Assembly (NCBI RefSeq): GCF_001517625.2
Contig: NZ_LN999827.1
Span: 1 to 64,000, forward strand
DNA from: Clostridium sp. AT4
GTDB taxonomy: Bacteria; Bacillota; Clostridia; Lachnospirales; Lachnospiraceae
Direction of reading: 5' to 3'
Length of the DNA stretch: 64,000 nucleotides
Part shown: positions 36,379 to 64,000 of the stretch, in pieces
Position numbering within the stretch: the stretch's first letter is position 1
Layout of the letters: each line of letters opens with the position of its first letter
Position numbers and translations under genes: made by a program
Notes under the pieces: model-generated
Database searches by the model: none
What the model saw: only the letters and a program-made list of their open reading frames with translations
What the model was told of the DNA's origin: nothing

Positions 36379-37989
36379 TTACTGCTGAATATCCGCATTC
36401 TTCCAGAACATACGGAAGGTAGCATCCATCTTAAAGCCAGTGATCTTCGGATTTAAAAGATAGAACTTTGTTTCATTGTACAGAGGTGTGGTTGCCCAGT
36501 CCTCTCTTGTCATGATGTGTTCTGCCTTTGCGTAAATCTCCTGACGCTCGGCCGGATCTGTAGTTGCGATTCCATCTTCCAGAAGCTGATCAAATTCTGC
36601 ATTGTGCCAGAAGCTGGAGTTGGAATCTGTCTTAGTCATCGGATAAAGCATACTCTCAGGATCGGAGTAATCTACATACCAGTTGGCAATACCGCAGTCA
36701 ACACCGCCGTTCTTCTTCATATCAGACCATGCAGCAGAGTCAACCTGCTCAACCTCAACCCGGATGCCGGCTGCCTTTGCCTGCTGCTGGAATGCAGTAA
36801 CGATTGCAACGTTACCCTGATACTTGGTATTTACAGTCACACGCAGATCAATTCCGTCCGGATAGCCGGCTTCCGCTAAAAGAGCCTTTGCCTGCTCCGG
36901 ATTATACTCGAACTCAGGAAGAGTCTCGTCATGTCCGATGATGCCTGCCGGAATGTAGGAAGTAGGAACGGTTGCTGTTCCGTGAAGGATGCTCTCACAG
37001 ATCGACTTGCGGTCGATAGAAAGAGCGATTGCCTGTCTTACCTTTGGATCCGGGAAGGTCTTTGCATTTAAGGTCAGAGTATAGTTTCCGGTAGGCTGGA
37101 AGCCGTGCATCTGATCCTTGATCTGGGGATTACTGGAGTATACGGGGTAAATGGAAGGATCCACATCTACATAATCTACATTGCCCTTCTGGTATTCCAG
37201 TACCTGTGTATTTACATCTTCGATAAATTTGTAGTCCAGTCCGTCTAACTTCACAGCGCCGCCGTGGTAATCATCAAATCTTGACAGTACAACGCCTACG
37301 CCGCTCTGATAGCTGTCCATCTTGAAAGGACCGGTTCCGTATAATACCTGCATACCCCAGGTATCTCCTGCTTCCTCGCAGGCTGCCTCAGGATAAATCG
37401 CACAGTATCCGGTAGAAAGAACGGAAGCGAATGGCGCGTATGGCTTAACCAGCTTGATGGTAAAATGAGTATCATCCTGTACCTGAATACCGGACATCTC
37501 CTCAGCTGCGCCGTCAGCCAGTTCTTTATAGCCCTCTACATTCTCCATCAGAGTTGCCATCTTTGTAAGCTTTACCAGACGCTCAAAGGAATACTTTACA
37601 TCAGAGGCCTTTAAAGTCTCCCCATTGTGGAACTTCACATCGGGAAGCAGCTCGAAGCTGTAGGTCATGCCGTCCTCGGATACCTCCGGAAGAGCGGTAA
37701 GAAGATTAGGCTCCAGACTTCCGTCTTCCATCGTAGTAATCAGAGACTCTGTTACATTGTCTGTGATCTTCATAACAATACTATAGGTATACTGCTGGGG
37801 ATCCAGCGCTACCTGTGGGTCAACTGCAGCGACTCTTACAACCTTGCCGCCGGCCGGTACTCCTGCTGCTGGTGCCGCAGTAGTGCTTTCTGCTGCTGCC
37901 GTTGTTTCCGTCTGACCGGAACCGCCGCAGGCTGACAAAGAAAGTGCAGTTGCAATTAAACATACGGCTGCCGCAAATCTCTTTTTCAT
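36379..37989 (-). CDS. Oligopeptide ABC transporter 1, substrate-binding lipoprotein
   Basis: About 536 residues, SBP_bac_5 family. Signal peptide MKKRFAAAVCLIATALSLSACGG with lipobox Cys at about residue 21, Thr/Ala-rich linker, then VVRVAAVDPQVALDPQQYTYSIVMKITDNVTESL and the family block SFELLPDVKFHNGETLKASDVKYSFERL. The start at 37989 has AGGAGG seven bases upstream; the longer frame is rejected. It captures peptides outside the membrane. First gene of the operon, with a strong promoter 50 bases ahead. Confidence 0.95.
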   Translation of the reverse strand: MKKRFAAAVCLIATALSLSACGGSGQTETTAAAESTTAAPAAGVPAGGKVVRVAAVDPQVALDPQQYTYSIVMKITDNVTESLITTMEDGSLEPNLLTALPEVSEDGMTYSFELLPDVKFHNGETLKASDVKYSFERLVKLTKMATLMENVEGYKELADGAAEEMSGIQVQDDTHFTIKLVKPYAPFASVLSTGYCAIYPEAACEEAGDTWGMQVLYGTGPFKMDSYQSGVGVVLSRFDDYHGGAVKLDGLDYKFIEDVNTQVLEYQKGNVDYVDVDPSIYPVYSSNPQIKDQMHGFQPTGNYTLTLNAKTFPDPKVRQAIALSIDRKSICESILHGTATVPTSYIPAGIIGHDETLPEFEYNPEQAKALLAEAGYPDGIDLRVTVNTKYQGNVAIVTAFQQQAKAAGIRVEVEQVDSAAWSDMKKNGGVDCGIANWYVDYSDPESMLYPMTKTDSNSSFWHNAEFDQLLEDGIATTDPAERQEIYAKAEHIMTREDWATTPLYNETKFYLLNPKITGFKMDATFRMFWKNADIQQ

Positions 37990-52016: not shown

Positions 52017-52433
52017 ATGGAAGCATATATGGATGCAAAAGCTTCAACCTGCAGCTGCGGATGCGGATGCAGAAGCCGTGTCGTTCCCGGCGTATCAGAC
52101 AGACCGGCCGCACAGCCGGAATATTCCGGACCATCCCCCCAGATGTGGCCCGGATGGGATATGAATCAGTCCCTTCCTTATGGGGAAGCCGGATATCCCC
52201 AGACAGGATATCCTCAGATAGGAACAAATATGAATCAGGGAAGTACCGTATGGCCCATCGTGAACTGCCCGGATACCACAGCCGGTTATCTGGAGCAGCA
52301 TCACCCCGTAGCTATGGCCTATGTACCGTGGCAGCAGTGGCAGACTGCCTATGCACCTGAACGCGGCCTCATGCAGGGAACCATCTTCCCTGACCTGGAT
52401 CTTCCATTTAATTACGGGAGGTGCGGACGATGA
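52017..52433 (+). CDS. cotJA: CotJA-like spore-coat protein
   Basis: A 138-residue protein with a Cys-rich N-terminus (CSCGCGCRSR), a Pro/Gly/Tyr/Gln-rich middle with YPQ repeats, and the CotJA core MAYVPWQQWQTAYAPERGLMQGTIFPDLDLPF at the C-terminus. The core is that of the spore-coat associated JA family. AAGGAG precedes the start. First gene of cotJABC, with the stop overlapping the cotJB start by ATGA. The N-terminal Cys stretch resembles the divergent Cys-rich gene. Confidence 0.9.
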   Translation: MEAYMDAKASTCSCGCGCRSRVVPGVSDRPAAQPEYSGPSPQMWPGWDMNQSLPYGEAGYPQTGYPQIGTNMNQGSTVWPIVNCPDTTAGYLEQHHPVAMAYVPWQQWQTAYAPERGLMQGTIFPDLDLPFNYGRCGR

Positions 52434-52702
52434 CAGAACATCTTCAGAACCCATCAAGAGGAGCCATGCTCCAGGCAGTAAACCAGACCAGCTTTGCCGT
52501 GGTGGAGGCCAATCTCTATCTGGACACTCATCCCTGTGATATGGAAGCTCTCTCCTATCTCAATCAGATGATGGAAGCCTACAAAAACGCAAAAGCCGCC
52601 TATGAGGCCCAGTTTGGCCCCTTAAATGCGGGCAATGTGACTGAAAATGCCTACTGGACCTGGGTCAGTGATCCCTGGCCATGGGAAGGAGGGAATTTAT
52701 AA
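52430..52702 (+). CDS. cotJB: CotJB-like spore-coat protein
   Basis: About 90 residues, start MTEHLQNPSRG. Pattern LQAVNQTSFAVVEANLYLDTHPCDMEALSYLNQM...AYEAQFGPLNAGNV...WTWVSDPWPWEGG is that of CotJB, including the C-terminal W-rich end. Translationally coupled to cotJA (ATGA) and shares a base with the cotJC start (TAATG). Confidence 0.92.
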   Translation: MTEHLQNPSRGAMLQAVNQTSFAVVEANLYLDTHPCDMEALSYLNQMMEAYKNAKAAYEAQFGPLNAGNVTENAYWTWVSDPWPWEGGNL

Positions 52703-53319
52703 TGTGGATTTATGAAAAACGTCTCCAGTTTCCGGTAAATATTAAGGAGCCGAATGCCAAACTGGCGCAGTTTATTATGAGTCAGTACGGCGGCCCCGAC
52801 GGCGAGATGGGCGCATCCATGCGCTATCTGTCCCAGCGCTACGCCATGCCTTATAAAGAAGGCAAGGCTGTTTTGACCGATATCGGCACAGAGGAATTGG
52901 CACATCTGGAAATGATCGCCGCCATTGTCCATCAGCTGACCCGGAACCTCACAGCCGAGCAGCTGGTAGAACAGGGCTTCGGACCCTATTATATTGACCA
53001 TGCCACCGGAATCTGGCCTCAGGCCGCAGGCGGCATTCCCTTTAATGCCTGCGAATTCCAGTCCAAGGGCGATGTGATCACAGACCTTCATGAAGATATG
53101 GCAGCAGAACAAAAAGCCCGGAGTACCTATGACAACATCCTCCGGGTAGTAACAGACTATGACGTATGCGAACCTATCAAGTTCCTGAGAGAACGTGAGA
53201 TCGTCCATTACCAGCGGTTCGGTGAAACCCTCCGAATCACCCAGGAAAAACTGGACAGCCGCAATTTCTATGCCTTTAATCCGGCCTTTGATCCGGATCA
53301 GGCGCCCCAGCCCCGATAA
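52702..53319 (+). CDS. cotJC: CotJC-like manganese-catalase-family coat protein
   Basis: A 205-residue CotJC/Mn-catalase-like protein. Ferritin-type motifs: QYGGPDGEMGASMRYLSQRYAMP, TDIGTEELAHLEMIAAIVHQL (ExxH), then a second segment HEDMAAEQKARSTYDNI (EDMAAE). It may detoxify peroxide in the spore coat. The start MWIYEKR at 52702 follows AGGAGG. No terminator was seen: the stop lies 7 bases from the convergent ABC gene. Confidence 0.95.
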   Translation: MWIYEKRLQFPVNIKEPNAKLAQFIMSQYGGPDGEMGASMRYLSQRYAMPYKEGKAVLTDIGTEELAHLEMIAAIVHQLTRNLTAEQLVEQGFGPYYIDHATGIWPQAAGGIPFNACEFQSKGDVITDLHEDMAAEQKARSTYDNILRVVTDYDVCEPIKFLREREIVHYQRFGETLRITQEKLDSRNFYAFNPAFDPDQAPQPR

Positions 53320-57832: not shown

Positions 57833-58276
57833 TTATGTTTGTGCCATAATCTCATAACTGCCAGACATATTTCCGCCAGACCGGAAATACCATTCCAGCC
57901 CCAGGCTGGCTGCCATGGCGCGGTCCACACCGCCCATCTGCCGCCGGTCCAGGTGCCCTATGTATTCCTTTAAGCGGCTGCGGTCAATGGTGCGGATCTG
58001 CTCTGTAAGCACCGTAGAATCCTGTTTTAATCCGCACAATGTCTTATCCAGGCTTACATGGGTAGGAATCACCGCCTTGGTGGTCCGGCTGGTAATGGCA
58101 GCTACGATCACCGTCGGGCTGTGGCGGTTTCCCGTGTCATTCTGGATGACTAAAACAGGCCGGATCCCTCCCTGCTCCGATCCCTTGACCGGTGAAAGGT
58201 CTGCATAAAAGAGGTCTCCCCGGATCACCGGGCGGTACGTCTGTCTATTTCCATTCCAGTCTGAATTTCGTTCCAT
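57833..58276 (-). CDS. PemK/MazF-family mRNA endoribonuclease-like protein
   Basis: About 147 residues. Family core [56 protein letters not shown] and the second half [23 protein letters not shown] match MazF/PemK toxins, ending in a short C-terminal extension. The start MERNSDWN at 58276 has AGGAG seven bases upstream; the longer frame to 58315 is rejected. No antitoxin gene is seen upstream (58316-58370), so it appears to be an orphan, as in several Clostridia. It lies between cstA and the biosynthetic cluster on the same strand. Confidence 0.88.
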
Positions 58277-58370
58277 GGCTTGTCTCCTTATTTTGAGTTT
58301 CATCACTTCATTCATACACTCATAGGATTCCCAATTCCGGAGATTTCAAACATTTCCTGAAAAAAACATG

Positions 58371-58399
58371 AAAAAGCCCCATCCTCAGAGGACAGGGCC
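58371..58399 (-). terminator. Terminator of the biosynthetic cluster
   Basis: Minus strand GCCCTGTCCTC-TGA-GAGGATGGGGC with 11 pairs including G-U, followed by TTTTT. It lies 28 bases past the ligase stop. Confidence 0.82.
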
Positions 58400-58426: not shown

Positions 58427-59908
58427 TTAAAACCGCTTGATTTTTCCTGCGGCTGTCCGTTCAAAAGGCACTCCTCTCACGATCAGCCTGGCAATGCGCT
58501 TATAGACAGGCATAGACCCATTCAGGCGGTCAACCAGCTCCTGAAGAAGCAGCTCTGGCTCTGTAATCGTATGCTTTTCCATATATTCCGGATCCGGGAA
58601 GATCTCTGCCTCGATGACCTTCTCATGCTCGCGCACCAGAATCTCTTTTACCAGATCATTGCGTCCCAGCTCATTTTCCAGCTCCTCAGGAGATACATTT
58701 TCTCCATTTGCAAGGATGATCAGGTTCTTTCTGCGGCCGGTAAGGAATACAAAACGATCCTCGTCCACATAGCCTAAGTCTCCTGTCTTTAACCAGCCGT
58801 CCTCCAGAGCGGCAGCCGTTTCCTCAGGCATCTTGTAATATCCCTGCATCACGCTGCTTCCCCGTACCCAGAGCTCGTAATCCACGGTCTTTGCCTCGCA
58901 GTTTGGCAGAAGTTTTCCTACGGATCCGATCTTATTTTCCCACTCCAGATTGGTGCTAATCACAGGAGAACACTCCGTCATGCCGTATCCCTGAAGAATG
59001 GTGATGCCAAACTCCTTAAAAAGACGGATACAGTCCGGATCGAGGTAAGCGCCTCCGCTGCAGATGGTCTTAAGCTTTCCGCCGAATATGGCCGCTGCAG
59101 CCTGTTCCTTTGGAACAGACGGATCGATCTCCTTTAATTTTCCTGCCAGCGATTCGATGATCATAGGCACCAAAAGCACGATTTCCGGCTGGAACAGCTT
59201 TAAATTTCTCTGGAACCGCATGATCGAATCATTGATGCAGATGATCATTCCAATGGAAATGCCCTTTATAATGTCCATGGTCAGACAGTACACATGGTTA
59301 ATGGGAAGAACGGTCAGGGATACGGTTCCCTGAGGGATCTTCATATCCAGACACAGGGCATTGTCCGCCAGATTCCGGTGGGTCAGCATAACGCCCTTGC
59401 TCTTTCCTGTGGTTCCTGAGGTAAAAAGAATGGTACACAGATCCTCCGGTTTTACCTCACAGTGAAATTCTCCCCGGTATGCCTCTAAAAGCTCGGGCAG
59501 AGACTGGATGGAAAGAAACTCACGGATCTTTGGACAGGAAGAAGCGGCCGCCTCTGCCACATCCATCCTCACCTCATCAAACACCAGCATTTCCACATCT
59601 GCCCGGTTTAGGAGCTCACAGACTGCCTCTGCAGGAAGCTGTACATCAATGGGAACTGCCACACTTTTACTATTTGCTGCGCCAAAATATGAAGTGATCC
59701 ATCCATAGCTGGTAGGGCCGATGACAGCAATATGCTTTCCTCTCATCCCCTTTTCTTCCAGCATACGGCCAAAGGCCATGGTATCCCTGGGCAGATCTTC
59801 ATAGGTCTTTTCCTCAAGCTCCCGCTTTACTTTATAGCGGAACGCGGTCTGGCTGCCGTAAGAATCAGCCGCCCGGCTTATGATCTCCTGTAATGTATTT
59901 GCTTCCAT
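58427..59908 (-). CDS. AMP-forming ligase (adenylation / acyl-ACP synthetase-like)
   Basis: A 493-residue ANL-superfamily enzyme that activates an acid as acyl-AMP and loads it on CoA or a carrier. Motifs: P-loop TILFTSGTTGKSKGVMLTH (about 160-177), GGAYLDPDCIRLF, GYGMTECSPVIS, TGDLGYVDEDRFVFLTGRRKNLIILANGENVSPEELE, and terminal AAGKIKRF with the catalytic Lys. The pattern is closer to fatty-acyl ligases than to amino-acid-specific NRPS A-domains, but substrate cannot be read with confidence. It lies 33 bases after the carrier-protein gene and is the last gene of the cluster, suggesting it loads that carrier. Confidence 0.9.
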   Translation of the reverse strand: MEANTLQEIISRAADSYGSQTAFRYKVKRELEEKTYEDLPRDTMAFGRMLEEKGMRGKHIAVIGPTSYGWITSYFGAANSKSVAVPIDVQLPAEAVCELLNRADVEMLVFDEVRMDVAEAAASSCPKIREFLSIQSLPELLEAYRGEFHCEVKPEDLCTILFTSGTTGKSKGVMLTHRNLADNALCLDMKIPQGTVSLTVLPINHVYCLTMDIIKGISIGMIICINDSIMRFQRNLKLFQPEIVLLVPMIIESLAGKLKEIDPSVPKEQAAAAIFGGKLKTICSGGAYLDPDCIRLFKEFGITILQGYGMTECSPVISTNLEWENKIGSVGKLLPNCEAKTVDYELWVRGSSVMQGYYKMPEETAAALEDGWLKTGDLGYVDEDRFVFLTGRRKNLIILANGENVSPEELENELGRNDLVKEILVREHEKVIEAEIFPDPEYMEKHTITEPELLLQELVDRLNGSMPVYKRIARLIVRGVPFERTAAGKIKRF

Positions 59909-59941
59909 TCCTTCTCCTTCCTCTTTCCCGCCTCAGACAGC

Positions 59942-60166
59942 CTACTGCAGGGACTGGATATACTCCATGGCGTCCTTTACTGTCTTTACATTGACCACTT
60001 CCCGCTCGTCCACTTCAACGTCCCAGTGCTCCTCGATCTCTCCGACCATACTCATAAAATCATAGGAATTAAAGCCCAAGTCCTCCACAAAACGAGAATC
60101 CTCCCGGATTTCTCCCGGTTCTACATCTACATACTCACAGATCATCTCTTTTAACTCTTCAAACAT
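59942..60166 (-). CDS. Free-standing acyl/peptidyl carrier protein
   Basis: A 74-residue acidic four-helix carrier. Motif DLGFNSYDFMSMVGEIEEHW with the phosphopantetheine attachment Ser (residue 34), in the variant N-S-Y rather than the usual D-S-L. The start MFEELKEM at 60166 lies 9 bases from GGGAG; a longer frame to 60199 overlaps the condensation gene and is rejected. It carries acyl or aminoacyl intermediates between the ligase and the condensation protein. The primary fatty-acid ACP is expected elsewhere in the genome. Its own phosphopantetheinyl transferase is in the same operon. Confidence 0.92.
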   Translation of the reverse strand: MFEELKEMICEYVDVEPGEIREDSRFVEDLGFNSYDFMSMVGEIEEHWDVEVDEREVVNVKTVKDAMEYIQSLQ

Positions 60167-60185
60167 ATCCTTTTTCTCCCTCTTT

Positions 60186-61601
60186 TTATACCATGTCAAT
60201 AATCTCTCCTACCGTCCTGCTGCAGTCCTCCACACCTCTGAAAATGATCCTGCACAGATAGTAGTATACCTCTTCCAGTTTCTGGGGCGTCACAATACCG
60301 GTCTGGTACTCAAAGCAGAAATCCAAACCATCGTCCAGAGCGCGGTGGCTCACAGTCAGATACAGCGGCTGTCCTGCCACACCATTGGAGTAACGGGCTG
60401 TATCATAGCGGATCCCGCCCATCTTATCAAGGCCCGGCCCCTCATATTTCATAGCCAGAGGCTGATAGGTCAGAGCCAGGGGCTCATAGGTCAGGCCGTC
60501 TTCCAGGTTATAAAATTTCTTTCTGTAATTAAAATACTCCGTAGGGCTGTAGCTTGCGTGCCGGAAATACTGATTCTGTGTATCCCGGATGATCTCCATT
60601 CCCTCTAAGAAGGTCTTGTCCCGTGAAATAATGGTTCTAAAGGGGAAGCAGTGGATCCTGGTACCGCCGCATCGCTTCTCGGTCAGAGTGGCCCTTCTTG
60701 CAATAGTGGTCGTAAGAGAAACATCCTCATTTCCGTTCTGCTTCTGAAGATAGGTCCTAAGGCCCATGAGCAGAAGGCAGGTCATGGAGATCCTGTGTTC
60801 CTCACAGAACGTTAAAAGCCGTTCCGACGGCTCCGGTTCCAGCCGGAAAGTGGTAATATTGGCTGATACATCCTCCGGAATGGTGCGGGCCGCCCTCTGA
60901 TCCGGGTTGCCGGAAGCCTTTCTCTGCTGTTCAAGAAGCCCTGGACCGTAGATGCTGTTAAAGATCGGCTCCGATGTGCCGATCAGCTTTTCAAAAAATT
61001 CCCGGTCTCTCTGGCTGGATGTACTTCCCGCCTCATAAGCCAGATCCTTTTCCAGCTGCTTTATGTAAGAGGTCATGGCCTTTGGATAAGCAATCACCTC
61101 GTCTCCAAACATCTTATGGCTGTAGATTTCAATGATATCCCTGTAAAACAGGATCAGGGACTGGGCGTCCATGGTCATGTGGTCTACGCACACATAGGTT
61201 CCCTGAAAGCCGTTTGGAAGGCGGATCATCACAATGCGGTGCATGGGAGAATCGTAACGCTCAAAGGGAAGCTCGGTCCACTCCCTCATCTTCGCCTCTG
61301 CGTCCTCCATTTTCCATCCGCAAAAGTCAAAGTGTCCGATCTCAGAGTGATCCTCCTTTACCACATACTGGTACTCTTTTCCCTCTTTTTTGTCATGGGC
61401 AAAACGGATCCGCATTCCCTCGCAGCGGGAAATCGCTTCCTTAATGCTCTCCCGCAGCACCTCCCAGTCCAGATCGATCTCAATAGTCAGGCTGGAGCCG
61501 ATATTTAATACCTGCTTTTTGGGACAGTATTTCAGACAGTAAAAATGCAGCTTCTGCGCCTCGGTCAGCGGATATACCTTACAGCCCCTTCTCGTTTTCA
61601 T
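60186..61601 (-). CDS. Free-standing condensation-domain protein
   Basis: A 471-residue protein with the condensation-domain fold of NRPS and polyketide acyltransferases (PapA/WES-like): N-terminal YPLTEAQKLHFYCLKYC, active-site region YVCVDHMTMDAQSLILFYRD (His 141, Asp 145) in place of HHxxxDG, and a C-terminal YLTVSHRALDDGLDFCFEY. The first His and the Gly are replaced, but the catalytic second His is kept. It probably forms an amide or ester between a carrier-bound acyl group and an acceptor. It overlaps the alpha/beta-hydrolase gene by 4 bases (ATGA). Confidence 0.85.
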   Translation of the reverse strand: MKTRRGCKVYPLTEAQKLHFYCLKYCPKKQVLNIGSSLTIEIDLDWEVLRESIKEAISRCEGMRIRFAHDKKEGKEYQYVVKEDHSEIGHFDFCGWKMEDAEAKMREWTELPFERYDSPMHRIVMIRLPNGFQGTYVCVDHMTMDAQSLILFYRDIIEIYSHKMFGDEVIAYPKAMTSYIKQLEKDLAYEAGSTSSQRDREFFEKLIGTSEPIFNSIYGPGLLEQQRKASGNPDQRAARTIPEDVSANITTFRLEPEPSERLLTFCEEHRISMTCLLLMGLRTYLQKQNGNEDVSLTTTIARRATLTEKRCGGTRIHCFPFRTIISRDKTFLEGMEIIRDTQNQYFRHASYSPTEYFNYRKKFYNLEDGLTYEPLALTYQPLAMKYEGPGLDKMGGIRYDTARYSNGVAGQPLYLTVSHRALDDGLDFCFEYQTGIVTPQKLEEVYYYLCRIIFRGVEDCSRTVGEIIDMV

Positions 61602-62566
61602 TCCTCACATACCCCTTTCGTAAATGCACGTTCCATCAGTTTCCTTACAGCCGCCTCATAAGCCGGACGATCCTTATAATATGCCTCTGCATGGGAAGCT
61701 CCCTCTATAATCAGAAGATCCTTTGGAGCAGCGCAGGCTTCGTAGAGCTCATGCACCATAGAGCAGGGCACAAAGGTATCCTTTGATCCGTGGATAAACA
61801 GCATGGGGATCTTAGACTTTTTTACCTCATCTCTGGCATTGCACTCATCCAAGCCATATCCGGCTTCCTTTTTTGCCATCCGGTCGGACAGATCCATTAA
61901 GGGAAATGCCGGCATATGATAGGTTGTCTTAAGAACAGAGGTAAATACCTCTTTGGCAGAGGTAAAGGCGCAGTCGGAAACAGCCCCCTTTACCTGCGGC
62001 GGAAGCTCAAGTCCTACTGCCATATCCACCGTAGCGGCTCCCATGGAAATGCCCTGAAGCAGAAGCTCACAGTCCTCTCCCAGACGCCCTGCCATGTATT
62101 CCATCCATTTTTTTGCGTCCAGACGATCCAGACAGCCAAAACCGATATAGGTACCCTCGCTGTCTCCATGGGCTCTCTCATCCACCGTCAGGACGCCCAG
62201 CCCGCAGCCCATATAAAACCGGGCCAGGGACGGGTAATCATTCAGTCCCCGGCTGGTATAGCCATGAAAGCAGATCACGGCCCGTTTGGGATCCTTTCCC
62301 GGAAAGTATGTTCCATGAAGCTTTAAGCCATCCTCAGACTGTATGTATACATTCTCATGGGGCTGGCTTAAAAACCACTGGCGGTTTTCCTCCATAAAGG
62401 GCAGATAGACGCTCCAGTCCGTACCTGCCATTTTCTGGGTCCGCTTATTATCCGCCTTTCCCCGCATCAGCGTCCGGCGCAGAAAATAGCGCGCCAGCGC
62501 ATACTCTCCCGCAGCAAGCAAAGCTGCCGCTCCGGCTCCCATTCCCAACATCCACTTTATTTTCAT
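61598..62566 (-). CDS. Membrane-anchored alpha/beta hydrolase
   Basis: A 322-residue hydrolase with an N-terminal membrane anchor (residues 5-25) and the fold motifs AVICFHGYTSRGLND (HG oxyanion), VLTVDERAHGDSEG, nucleophile LLQGISMGAAT, acid Asp in FIHGSKDTFVP, and His in GASHAEAY. It looks like FrsA/BAAT-like and YqkD/YtaP-type hydrolases. In this operon it could act as an editing thioesterase or remove a protecting group, which is inference. It overlaps both neighbours by ATGA. Confidence 0.9.
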   Translation of the reverse strand: MKIKWMLGMGAGAAALLAAGEYALARYFLRRTLMRGKADNKRTQKMAGTDWSVYLPFMEENRQWFLSQPHENVYIQSEDGLKLHGTYFPGKDPKRAVICFHGYTSRGLNDYPSLARFYMGCGLGVLTVDERAHGDSEGTYIGFGCLDRLDAKKWMEYMAGRLGEDCELLLQGISMGAATVDMAVGLELPPQVKGAVSDCAFTSAKEVFTSVLKTTYHMPAFPLMDLSDRMAKKEAGYGLDECNARDEVKKSKIPMLFIHGSKDTFVPCSMVHELYEACAAPKDLLIIEGASHAEAYYKDRPAYEAAVRKLMERAFTKGVCEE

Positions 62567-63192
62567 CCTGCCGCTCCTTTTTTATCCGGATCCGTATCCC
62601 TCATACAGACCCCTATATGATACGCATCTCCCAGCTGGGCCTCAAAAAAGCGCCAGCCGGGGATATCTGCTGTAAAACCGTGGCGATCTCCCAGATCCAG
62701 AGGAAGTTCAAAGGAAGCTGTCCCATAAAAAATACACTCCGGCTCTCTTTCCAGCCTGTTTGCAAATGAAATCTGCCGAAAGGGAAAGGCAAGTCCCCTG
62801 CCGTCTGCCTTTGCATAGCTTTCCTTTAACGTCCACAAACGGAGCGCAGTTTTCTCTGCCTCTTTCTCCTTCTTTTCACAAATCCATCTATATTCTTCCG
62901 GAGAACATATCCTCCTGACCAGCCCTTTGCTGCAGGGCTTTCGGACCTGGATATCAATCCCTACTGGATGGCTGCAGACCGCACAGACGGCTATTCCCTC
63001 TGTATGGCTGATACTAAAAAAAACTCCTGGATTGTCTTTTAGAAAGGGTTTTCCATTTTCCGGAGCTATCACCTCCCAGGTTCTCCCATATTCCTGCAAA
63101 AGCCCCCGCTCAAGAAGCCTTCTTCCCAGGATATGTTCTCTGGACCGGTCGCATTTCCTGCCCTCCGGCCGGTATGCGGCTGCGTAGATCAT
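62563..63192 (-). CDS. 4'-phosphopantetheinyl transferase (Sfp type)
   Basis: A 209-residue PPTase that activates carrier proteins. Motifs: KPFLKDNPGVFFSISHTEGIAVCAVC, GIDIQ (Asp 80), and WTLKESYAKADGRGL (120-134). The length and motif set fit Sfp-type enzymes, which serve secondary metabolism. First gene of the cluster, directly after the operator/promoter region. The ATG at 63192 has GGAGG at the expected distance (GGGGGAGTATG context). Confidence 0.92.
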   Translation of the reverse strand: MIYAAAYRPEGRKCDRSREHILGRRLLERGLLQEYGRTWEVIAPENGKPFLKDNPGVFFSISHTEGIAVCAVCSHPVGIDIQVRKPCSKGLVRRICSPEEYRWICEKKEKEAEKTALRLWTLKESYAKADGRGLAFPFRQISFANRLEREPECIFYGTASFELPLDLGDRHGFTADIPGWRFFEAQLGDAYHIGVCMRDTDPDKKGAAG

Positions 63193-63241
63193 ACTCCCCC
63201 TCCTGCTGCGTTCCCATGGTTTTCCCTGGTTTTTCCGTGTT

Positions 63242-63258
63242 TTCGACCGCTAGTCGAA
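63242..63258. promoter_or_regulatory. Operator 1, TetR-type palindrome
   Basis: TTCGACC-GCT-AGTCGAA is a 17-base near-perfect palindrome, downstream of the -10 of the cluster's promoter and therefore a roadblock position. It shares its left half with operator 2. Confidence 0.75.
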
Positions 63259-63271
63259 TCGTTTCTGCCTT

Positions 63272-63300
63272 ACAATATCATATTTTCGACCAGCGGTCAA
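63272..63300 (-). promoter_or_regulatory. Promoter of the biosynthetic cluster
   Basis: Minus strand TTGACC (63295-63300), 17-base spacer, TATTGT (63272-63277). The -35 lies within operator 2. About 80 bases upstream of the PPTase start codon. Confidence 0.65.
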
Positions 63301-63301
63301 G
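63285..63301. promoter_or_regulatory. Operator 2, TetR-type palindrome
   Basis: TTCGACC-AGC-GGTCAAG, same spacing and half-site as operator 1, 43 bases away centre to centre (about four helical turns). It covers the -35 of the cluster promoter and lies close upstream of the TetR promoter, so one regulator could control both directions. Confidence 0.75.
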
Positions 63302-63323
63302 TGTGGATTTTTTATATCACATA

Positions 63324-63332
63324 TGCTATACT
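63324..63332 (+). promoter_or_regulatory. Extended -10 promoter of the TetR gene
   Basis: TGCTATACT is an extended -10 (TGnTATACT) 51 bases ahead of the predicted start codon; the -35 region is poor (TGGATT). It lies 22 bases downstream of operator 2. Confidence 0.5.
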
Positions 63333-63383
63333 CGAACCATTCTGAAAACCATCCATATGACACTAAAAGAAAGCAGGAACATC

Positions 63384-64000
63384 ATGCAGTATCTGAATAA
63401 ACGCGAAAAAATCCTGGATGCCATGCAGCAGCTGATGACAACCGCTGATACCCGTTCCATTACGGTCAGTGAGATCGCTCAGAAAGCCGGCATTGGAAAA
63501 GGAAGCATCTATTATTATTTTCCCTCTAAAAATGATATTCTGGACGGAGTCATTGAGCGGGCCTATTCCCGCGTTCTGGAAAAGGGAAAGGCTCTGGCCG
63601 CTGCCTCAGACATAGATGCCTTCTGTAAAATGGAGATCATCTATCACGCCTGTCTGGAAGCCTCTAAGGAGCTGCGCCGTCAGGAGTCCTTTAACGCCGC
63701 CCCCGACGGCCAGGAGCGGGCCTTCATCCATCTGAAATTTGCCAAAGCCATTATCACCCATTTAAGACCTATTCTTGCAGATATCCTCCGGCAGGCTGTG
63801 GCAGAAAACGGTGCGGTCTGCGAATATCCGGAGGAAACAGCCTATATCATCCTTCTGGTATTAACCGCCACTCTGGACAACCGTCTGGTACCCATGAAGG
63901 AAAGCGACGTAAGCCGGATTCTCACTGCATTTACCCAGATGCAGGGCCAGGGGCTCAATATTCCGCCGGAGGTTCTGCATTTTCTGATCCGGGAGGTATA
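63384..64000 (+). CDS. TetR-family regulator (partial, runs off the window)
   Basis: The reading frame from ATG at 63384 stays open to the window edge (205 codons, no stop). N-terminus MQYLNKREKILDAMQQLM, then the TetR helix-turn-helix ITVSEIAQKAGIGKGSIYYYFPSKNDILDGVIERAY at about residues 26-60. The rest is a ligand-binding domain of helices without named motifs. A weak AGGA precedes the start; an in-frame ATG at 63357 lacks a ribosome-binding site. It is divergent from the biosynthetic cluster and is the obvious candidate to bind the paired palindromes between them. Ligand unknown. Confidence 0.92.
   Translation, partial: MQYLNKREKILDAMQQLMTTADTRSITVSEIAQKAGIGKGSIYYYFPSKNDILDGVIERAYSRVLEKGKALAAASDIDAFCKMEIIYHACLEASKELRRQESFNAAPDGQERAFIHLKFAKAIITHLRPILADILRQAVAENGAVCEYPEETAYIILLVLTATLDNRLVPMKESDVSRILTAFTQMQGQGLNIPPEVLHFLIREV

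Follow-up and report, generated by a model that had tools for sequence, protein, structure and literature searches.

The DNA analysed here (the window) is a stretch of 64,000 nucleotides from Clostridium sp. AT4, bases 1-64000 of the 617-kb contig C6 (NZ_LN999827.1) in a genome of 3.41 Mb and seven contigs. Its last 5.6 kb are filled by five minus-strand open reading frames (ORFs) and a divergent TetR gene. We regard these genes as a cassette for fatty acid amide (FAA) biosynthesis, a kind already described from gut Clostridia, with a probability of about 0.85. This reading draws on gene content, homology, catalytic residues, gene order, recurrent operator-like sites, co-occurrence, and presence or absence as a unit, all of which were obtained directly.

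Gene content and the condensation protein

The original prediction had described the five genes and the divergent TetR as a minimal stand-alone set in which one acid would be activated, kept on a carrier and passed to an acceptor, with an N-acyl compound as a candidate product. All ORFs were found in the predicted order and position. All five minus-strand proteins score above the curated cut-off of a Pfam family, and the minimal set with an N-acyl product is supported by the results below. The features are as follows.

63384 to 64000, plus strand: TetR-family regulator, 205 amino acids (TetR_N and TetR_C_39); the stop codon runs one base past the window, to contig base 64001.
62563 to 63192, minus strand: Sfp-type 4'-phosphopantetheinyl transferase (PPTase), 209 amino acids, an optional cassette member (ACPS PF01648, 63 bits).
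61598 to 62566, minus strand: membrane-anchored alpha/beta hydrolase, 322 amino acids (Pfam Hydrolase_4).
60186 to 61601, minus strand: free-standing condensation (C) protein, 471 amino acids, motif DHMTMDA with His141 and Asp145 (Pfam Condensation; OaaC homologue).
59942 to 60166, minus strand: acyl carrier protein (ACP), 74 amino acids, phosphopantetheine serine in DLGFNSYDF (PP-binding PF00550, 43 bits).
58427 to 59908, minus strand: free-standing AMP-forming acyl ligase (adenylation, or A, protein), 493 amino acids, C-terminal GKIKRF (AMP-binding PF00501, 207 bits).
58375 to 58399, minus strand: terminator-like hairpin 3' of the ligase gene (consensus match only).

The five minus-strand genes look like a single operon, because neighbouring genes overlap by 4 bases or are separated by gaps of 19-33 bases and the terminator-like hairpin follows the ligase gene. 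All parts are encoded separately, and no fused condensation-adenylation-peptidyl carrier module of a modular nonribosomal peptide synthetase (NRPS) was found. Instead, a free-standing adenylation protein, an ACP and a C protein are encoded together, as in FAA clusters. The C protein is the sole PF00668 match in the genome; therefore, no larger NRPS is on hand.

Residues 8-470 of the C protein match PDB entry 12kh (E = 9.9e-99, 334 bits), and the next PDB chain scores 32 bits. The entry bears no label other than 'Condensation Domain Protein'; it was taken to be OaaC, with a length and sequence features that fit the OaaC paper (PMC13142362). With 12kh taken as OaaC, the window C protein is homologous to OaaC over nearly its full length. 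The entry was found by sequence search and was absent among the 50 Foldseek matches listed against the PDB (copy to 2026-04-08). The available text of the OaaC paper reports a crystal structure of OaaC from Coprococcus eutactus. This protein couples a fatty acid carried by an ACP to a free amine and is part of the FAA clusters reported by Chang et al. (2021) from gut Clostridia (PMC13142362). In the same text, the motif of 127 FAA C domains is given as (D/H)HxxxDS, the last residue being S (42%), A (36%) or G (17%). The window motif DHMTMDA fits this signature in its form (D/H)HxxxD(S/A/G). An AlphaFold2 (AF2) single-chain model of the protein (pLDDT 89.5, pTM 0.87) has the C-domain fold. It includes a helix at residues 221-230, with which the inserted helix of OaaC, on the face that an adenylation domain would meet, aligns (about 220-230) only if the numbering of the paper runs two behind that of the PDB chain, as we assumed. 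A further mark of the Chang/OAA type would be a homodimer that opens when holo- or acyl-ACP binds; the model covers one chain.

A tree of 54 C-protein rows was built with two fused NRPS rows as outgroup and without starter C domains; long branches were flagged, and its deep order is tentative. The free-standing C proteins are split from the two fused NRPS C domains with support of 100/100. OaaC groups with 13 other rows (100/99), to which the long row L076 is joined weakly (89/54). The window protein groups with 36 other rows (91/86, under the starred threshold of the program); this group is referred to as clade 1. Its nearest named rows are [Clostridium] citroniae, Clostridium sp. 1001271st1 H5 and [Clostridium] clostridioforme, which we take to be Enterocloster or its kin. 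The form xHxxxDAQ occurs in 108 of 109 clade-1 rows (duplicates included), the first place being D in 85, N in 17, H in 5 and S in 1.

The hydrolase has an N-terminal helix at residues 2-32 and invariant Ser174, Asp263 and His292. Its best match by fold and sequence is the Pf2001 esterase of Pyrococcus furiosus (5g59; 24% identity; TM score 0.68 by query length and 0.79 by target length), followed at lower rank by monoglyceride lipases and cinnamoyl esterases; by this analogy, it is probably a lipid esterase. The top NCBIfam models of the ligase are fatty acid and related acyl-coenzyme A (CoA) ligases, all under the curated cut-off. The ACP best matches generic acyl carrier proteins, somewhat under the cut-off.

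Recurrence, operator-like sites and probable loss of the cassette

The family sample comprised 299 genomes, in which C matches were called at E 1e-20. Matches were found in 44 genomes at 45 places: 29 in clade 1, 13 in clade 2 (the OaaC side), L076 with a different gene order, and two in fused NRPS proteins. The hydrolase, C, ACP and ligase genes stand together at 27 of the 29 clade-1 places. The places are drawn from 29 different genera; recurrence on this scale is far beyond chance. A gene for an SCP2 protein accompanies 25 of them and a divergent TetR gene 23. Hydrolase relatives of at least 52% identity occur in 29 of the 299 genomes, exactly those with a clade-1 C protein.

The family places were combined with 80 named loci (L085-L164) and, after removal of duplicates, gave 98 distinct clade-1 loci. 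The named loci are the best 80 of 583 relatives and lean to close kin, the family sample being less biased; they were assigned to clade 1 by an identity of at least 56%, and nine of the 80 are in the tree. In the usual clade-1 arrangement, a TetR gene diverges from SCP2, hydrolase, C, ACP and ligase genes transcribed in this order. The last four are together in 93 of the 98 loci. The five exceptions are L046 and L127, which are script artefacts of start site or overlap with the order intact; L108 and L132, which lie at contig ends; and L074, in which the C and ligase genes are shortened and no ACP gene was found. Counted singly, the C protein is accompanied by an ACP in 95 loci, by a ligase in 95 and by both in 94. 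SCP2 lies upstream of the hydrolase in 82 loci, a divergent TetR is present in 71 and a PPTase lies upstream in six, some loci ending too close to the cassette for these three to be called.

The expectation that the gene order would be conserved in relatives was thus borne out for the hydrolase, C, ACP and ligase. The PPTase, which had been counted with them, falls outside the minimal set. A PF01648 match was found in 39 of 40 cassette-bearing genomes (of the 44), above the cut-off in 38, and each of the 39 has at least one such match outside the cassette; hence the cassette PPTase is an optional member. Among the PF01648 places in these 40 genomes, only those in G000 and G149 lie inside a cassette. 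A second PPTase of the window genome, of AcpS size, is on contig C7. The PPTase gene stands between the ACP and ligase genes in L135 and L145 (Clostridium saudiense and a relative), where no TetR or SCP2 gene was found.

On the OaaC side, ACP and ligase genes accompany the C gene at 11 of 13 places, and a hydrolase gene lies upstream at three of 13 by script and four by eye. Two solo C genes were seen there with no adjoining ACP or ligase gene found, L070 (G149:C1) and L072 (G046:C1); a 1434-codon frame lies beside that of L070. A second C protein, 42% identical to that of the window, was seen at L177 (G309:C161), in a genus member that also has two pieces of a clade-1 C gene on other contigs.

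SCP2, the component usual in relatives, is encoded outside the window and was not visible to the original prediction. Of the six clade-1 loci with a PPTase gene upstream, that of the window is the only one that lacks SCP2. Two SCP2 copies lie elsewhere in the genome, at 123.6-125.8 kb of contig C4. The cassette SCP2 proteins of relatives that most resemble these C4 copies share 73-78% identity with them, roughly the level seen between the C proteins (72-73%). On the simplest reading, the cassette SCP2 gene would have been relocated to C4 and duplicated. SCP2 identity was established by scanning two cassette copies and both C4 copies; the others were assigned by profile. The short ORF between the TetR and hydrolase genes of relatives was also considered as a small holo-ACP synthase, and this was rejected, as the scanned copies are SCP2. 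The two SCP2 genes at L084 (G000:C4, 5625-7820) flank cotJB/cotJC-like spore coat genes; a similar pair was seen by eye in the window at 52421-53319.

Around the 98 loci, no flanking family is widely common. The largest cluster, in 21 of the 98, joins ABC proteins loosely, and these lie at scattered positions; a MatE-type cluster occurs in 13 at low identity. A conserved transporter or other flanking partner was therefore rejected, no family exceeding 21 of 98 loci (six flanking proteins were annotated). In six loci, a MatE-type transporter gene is no more than 120 bases away from the cassette (four of the six confirmed by Pfam): L053, L127, L128, L144 and L157 on the 5' side and L129 on the 3' side. 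It is a possible exporter in a minority of species.

Between the TetR gene and the cassette lie a promoter-like site and two operator-like sites.

63272 to 63300, minus strand: promoter-like site TTGACC-17-TATTGT, reading into the cassette (consensus match only).
63285 to 63300, minus strand: operator-like site O1, TTGACCGCTGGTCGAA, overlapping the -35 hexamer of the promoter-like site.
63242 to 63257, minus strand: operator-like site O2, TCGACTAGCGGTCGAA, 43 bases downstream of O1.

Exact TYGACYNNNGGTCGAA sites number two in the whole genome, and both are at the cassette (O1 and O2). A usable region between the TetR gene and the first cassette gene was available in 71 distinct loci (80 before duplicate removal). 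The pattern TYGACYNNNGGTCRAA occurs at no more than one mismatch in 71 of 71, and two such sites occur in 55. Two sites at no more than two mismatches are present in 63 of the 71 loci, spaced 42-45 bases apart in 61 of the 63. For one site at one mismatch, shuffled regions gave an average of 0.10 of 71, the shuffles keeping base content only, and other stretches of the same loci gave 0.00; the pattern was derived from the same regions in which it was counted, which favours its wording. Across the whole window at two mismatches, six operator-like places were found against 3.55 expected, with no clear enrichment. The other operator-like place noted in the window, at 37001-37017, falls within the coding sequence of an apparent peptide-binding protein and was taken as chance. 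Membership of the C4 SCP2 genes in the same TetR regulon was rejected, since no site at up to two mismatches lies in the surrounding 14 kb and the only exact sites of the genome are at the cassette.

Within the genus, the C protein is present in eight of 17 genomes. SCP2 is present in nine, the eight with the C protein and G299, and was not found in the other eight, several of which are incomplete. A clean empty site was found in G119 (L179, G119:C9, 14243-15000), between a MazF-like gene and the counterpart of the gene that follows TetR just beyond the window, which by eye looks like a class A penicillin-binding protein (PBP1A). About 232 bases there replace window bases 58355 to about 64050. 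The flanks are the same as those of the window (MazF-like 92%, CstA 90% and PBP1A 85% identity). The PBP1A of G119 is the most similar in the genus, against 73-75% in the seven others at or above 73% (10 of 17 genomes matched, the last at 40%). The 19 kb fetched from G119 contain neither a cassette gene nor a TetR of this kind nor an operator-like site at one mismatch, and the genome has no C match and no SCP2 match. The cassette C gene lies within 10 kb of PBP1A on the same contig in six other genus members; loss in G119 is therefore likelier than gain by the window species. A MazF/PemK-like gene, named by eye, lies directly downstream of the cassette (window 57833-58315) and is also at the G119 empty site. 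In G299 (L180, G299:C1, 3569-5664), the TetR, SCP2 and hydrolase genes and both operator-like sites are kept beside the same PBP1A and are followed by an apparent nth (endonuclease III) gene. No trace of C, ACP or ligase was seen in the 19 kb fetched, and no C gene was found in the genome. The patchy presence in the genus (8/17) and the G119 empty site offer natural pairs for metabolite comparison.

Proposed reactions and alternative explanations

The chemistry of the A, ACP and C proteins is carried over from the published OAA system. The ligase would activate a free fatty acid with ATP and load it onto the phosphopantetheine arm of the ACP, which the PPTase would prime. The C protein would then join the acyl chain to an amine that diffuses freely, and no thioesterase would be needed to release the N-acyl amide. 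What the hydrolase, SCP2 and TetR do, which ligand TetR binds and what product is made are our inference. The anchored hydrolase probably acts at the membrane on exogenous acyl esters, releasing their fatty acids, and SCP2, acting in trans in the window genome, probably carries the lipid substrate or product. A repressor on O1 and O2 would block the promoter; TetR would thus repress through two operators across it until released by a ligand, for which the acyl substrate or product is a candidate. In the available text of PMC13142362, OaaA, OaaACP and OaaC make FAAs in vitro and no OaaC product is obtained from oleoyl-CoA.

Several points weigh against the FAA reading. No product of the window cassette or of any clade-1 relative is described in the literature examined. 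The window C protein lies in the other main group than OaaC, so its amine may differ, and the tree behind this placement was built with two outgroup rows and without starter C domains, some of its branches being flagged as long. Loading of the ACP rather than CoA by the ligase is deduced from context, the best curated models being CoA ligases below the cut-off. Four family genomes with no C match have more distant hydrolase relatives (39-46% identity), and TetR, SCP2 and hydrolase can persist without amide synthesis, as in G299, which keeps them without C, ACP and ligase; the hydrolase and SCP2 may thus have a role of their own. Finally, the genome holds no member of PF00282, the one decarboxylase family searched, and hence no aromatic-amine source was seen. 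A PF00282 enzyme as amine source was accordingly rejected, and the amine may come from outside.

A more specific form of the FAA reading is put forward tentatively, at somewhat less than even odds. Clade 1 would be a separately evolved FAA branch in which amide formation is tied to a lipid-supply front end: the esterase would free acyl chains and SCP2 would hand them to the ligase, in the window genome in trans from two relocated copies. TetR would sense the acyl pool through the paired operator, and the product would be other than oleoyl aminovaleric acid.

Scavenging or detoxification is the most probable of the alternatives. Here the main purpose would be to handle and conjugate free fatty acids or amines, host-active amides being a by-product. 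It differs from the FAA reading in purpose, not in chemistry, and both can hold. A membrane esterase, a lipid-binding SCP2 and a TetR resemble a substrate-responsive lipid-handling module, G299 keeps just these three without C, ACP or ligase, and the MatE-family transporter adjoins the cassette in 6/98 loci. Against these points stands the lack of any widespread flanking family, the loose ABC cluster (21/98) being scattered and the MatE-type cluster (13/98) of low identity. As the main purpose, we consider it rather unlikely.

Acylation of a larger acceptor, such as a surface polymer, peptide or protein, instead of a free small amine is improbable. The characterised homologue OaaC uses small free amines, and with no flanking family above 21 of 98 loci (six flanking proteins annotated), the cassette has no regular companion gene for an acceptor protein or polymer.

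Everyday loading of a carrier protein in the metabolism of fatty acids or teichoic acids (Dlt-like or fatty acid synthase accessory), with the C-like protein as a primary-metabolism acyltransferase, draws on the very broad ligase and ACP families and the generic, below-cut-off ACP matches, but is highly improbable given that the C protein matches OaaC at 334 bits and sits with both partners in 94/98 loci, that its distribution (44/299 family and 8/17 genus genomes) is too sporadic for systems expected to be near-universal and to lack a condensation protein, and that the whole unit is cleanly missing from the close relative G119. Dlt loci carry an MBOAT protein and DltD, and five genes plus TetR leave no room for these partners. 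The original prediction had held that it would fail if ligase and carrier served ordinary loading in all relatives; their association with the C protein speaks otherwise.

In the FAA reading, a small cassette joins a fatty acid to a small amine, and such lipids can mimic host signals; FAAs from gut Clostridia can act on host G-protein-coupled receptors, according to the available text of PMC13142362. One FAA clade would then be a tight, separable unit with a recurrent esterase, SCP2, TetR and operator-like sites. These recurrent partners point to possible substrate supply and expression gating, both of which are testable.

Comparison with described systems

VibH is the free-standing C domain of vibriobactin synthesis; it acylates a free amine, its partners being a siderophore NRPS and an aryl donor. 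It is named as a fold comparator in the available text of PMC13142362. The Pf2001 esterase (5g59) is archaeal and from an unrelated context, the cassette hydrolase being likened to it by fold and sequence only. The study of Chang and co-workers is reportedly one of lauroyl tryptamine. In the available text of a later paper they are credited with Eubacterium rectale making oleoylethanolamide (PMC11979265); the two statements differ. Papers citing Chang et al. (2021, Nat Microbiol) describe its FAA clusters as compact, NRPS-like, from gut Clostridia, and joining exogenous fatty acids to amines.

The original prediction had stated that no described pathway has exactly this layout. This novelty claim fails: free-standing A, ACP and C clusters for FAAs are described from gut Clostridia, the C protein is an OaaC homologue, and the kind of pathway is already known. 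The clade-wide arrangement of esterase, SCP2 and TetR with operators was not met in the literature examined; we make no claim of priority, Chang et al. (2021) being outside that literature. A term search of the main text of PMC13142362 found none of SCP2, hydrolase and TetR.

The closest described system is the OAA cluster of Coprococcus eutactus. As far as the available text goes (PMC13142362), it shares with the window cassette a free-standing A protein, an ACP and a C protein, near-full-length homology of the C proteins, the noncanonical DHxxxD motif, and the absence of a thioesterase. The window C protein differs in belonging to the other main tree group and in having DHxxxDAQ instead of the DHxxxDSC of OaaC, and the window cassette also includes a hydrolase and a PPTase and lies beside a divergent TetR gene with two operator-like sites.

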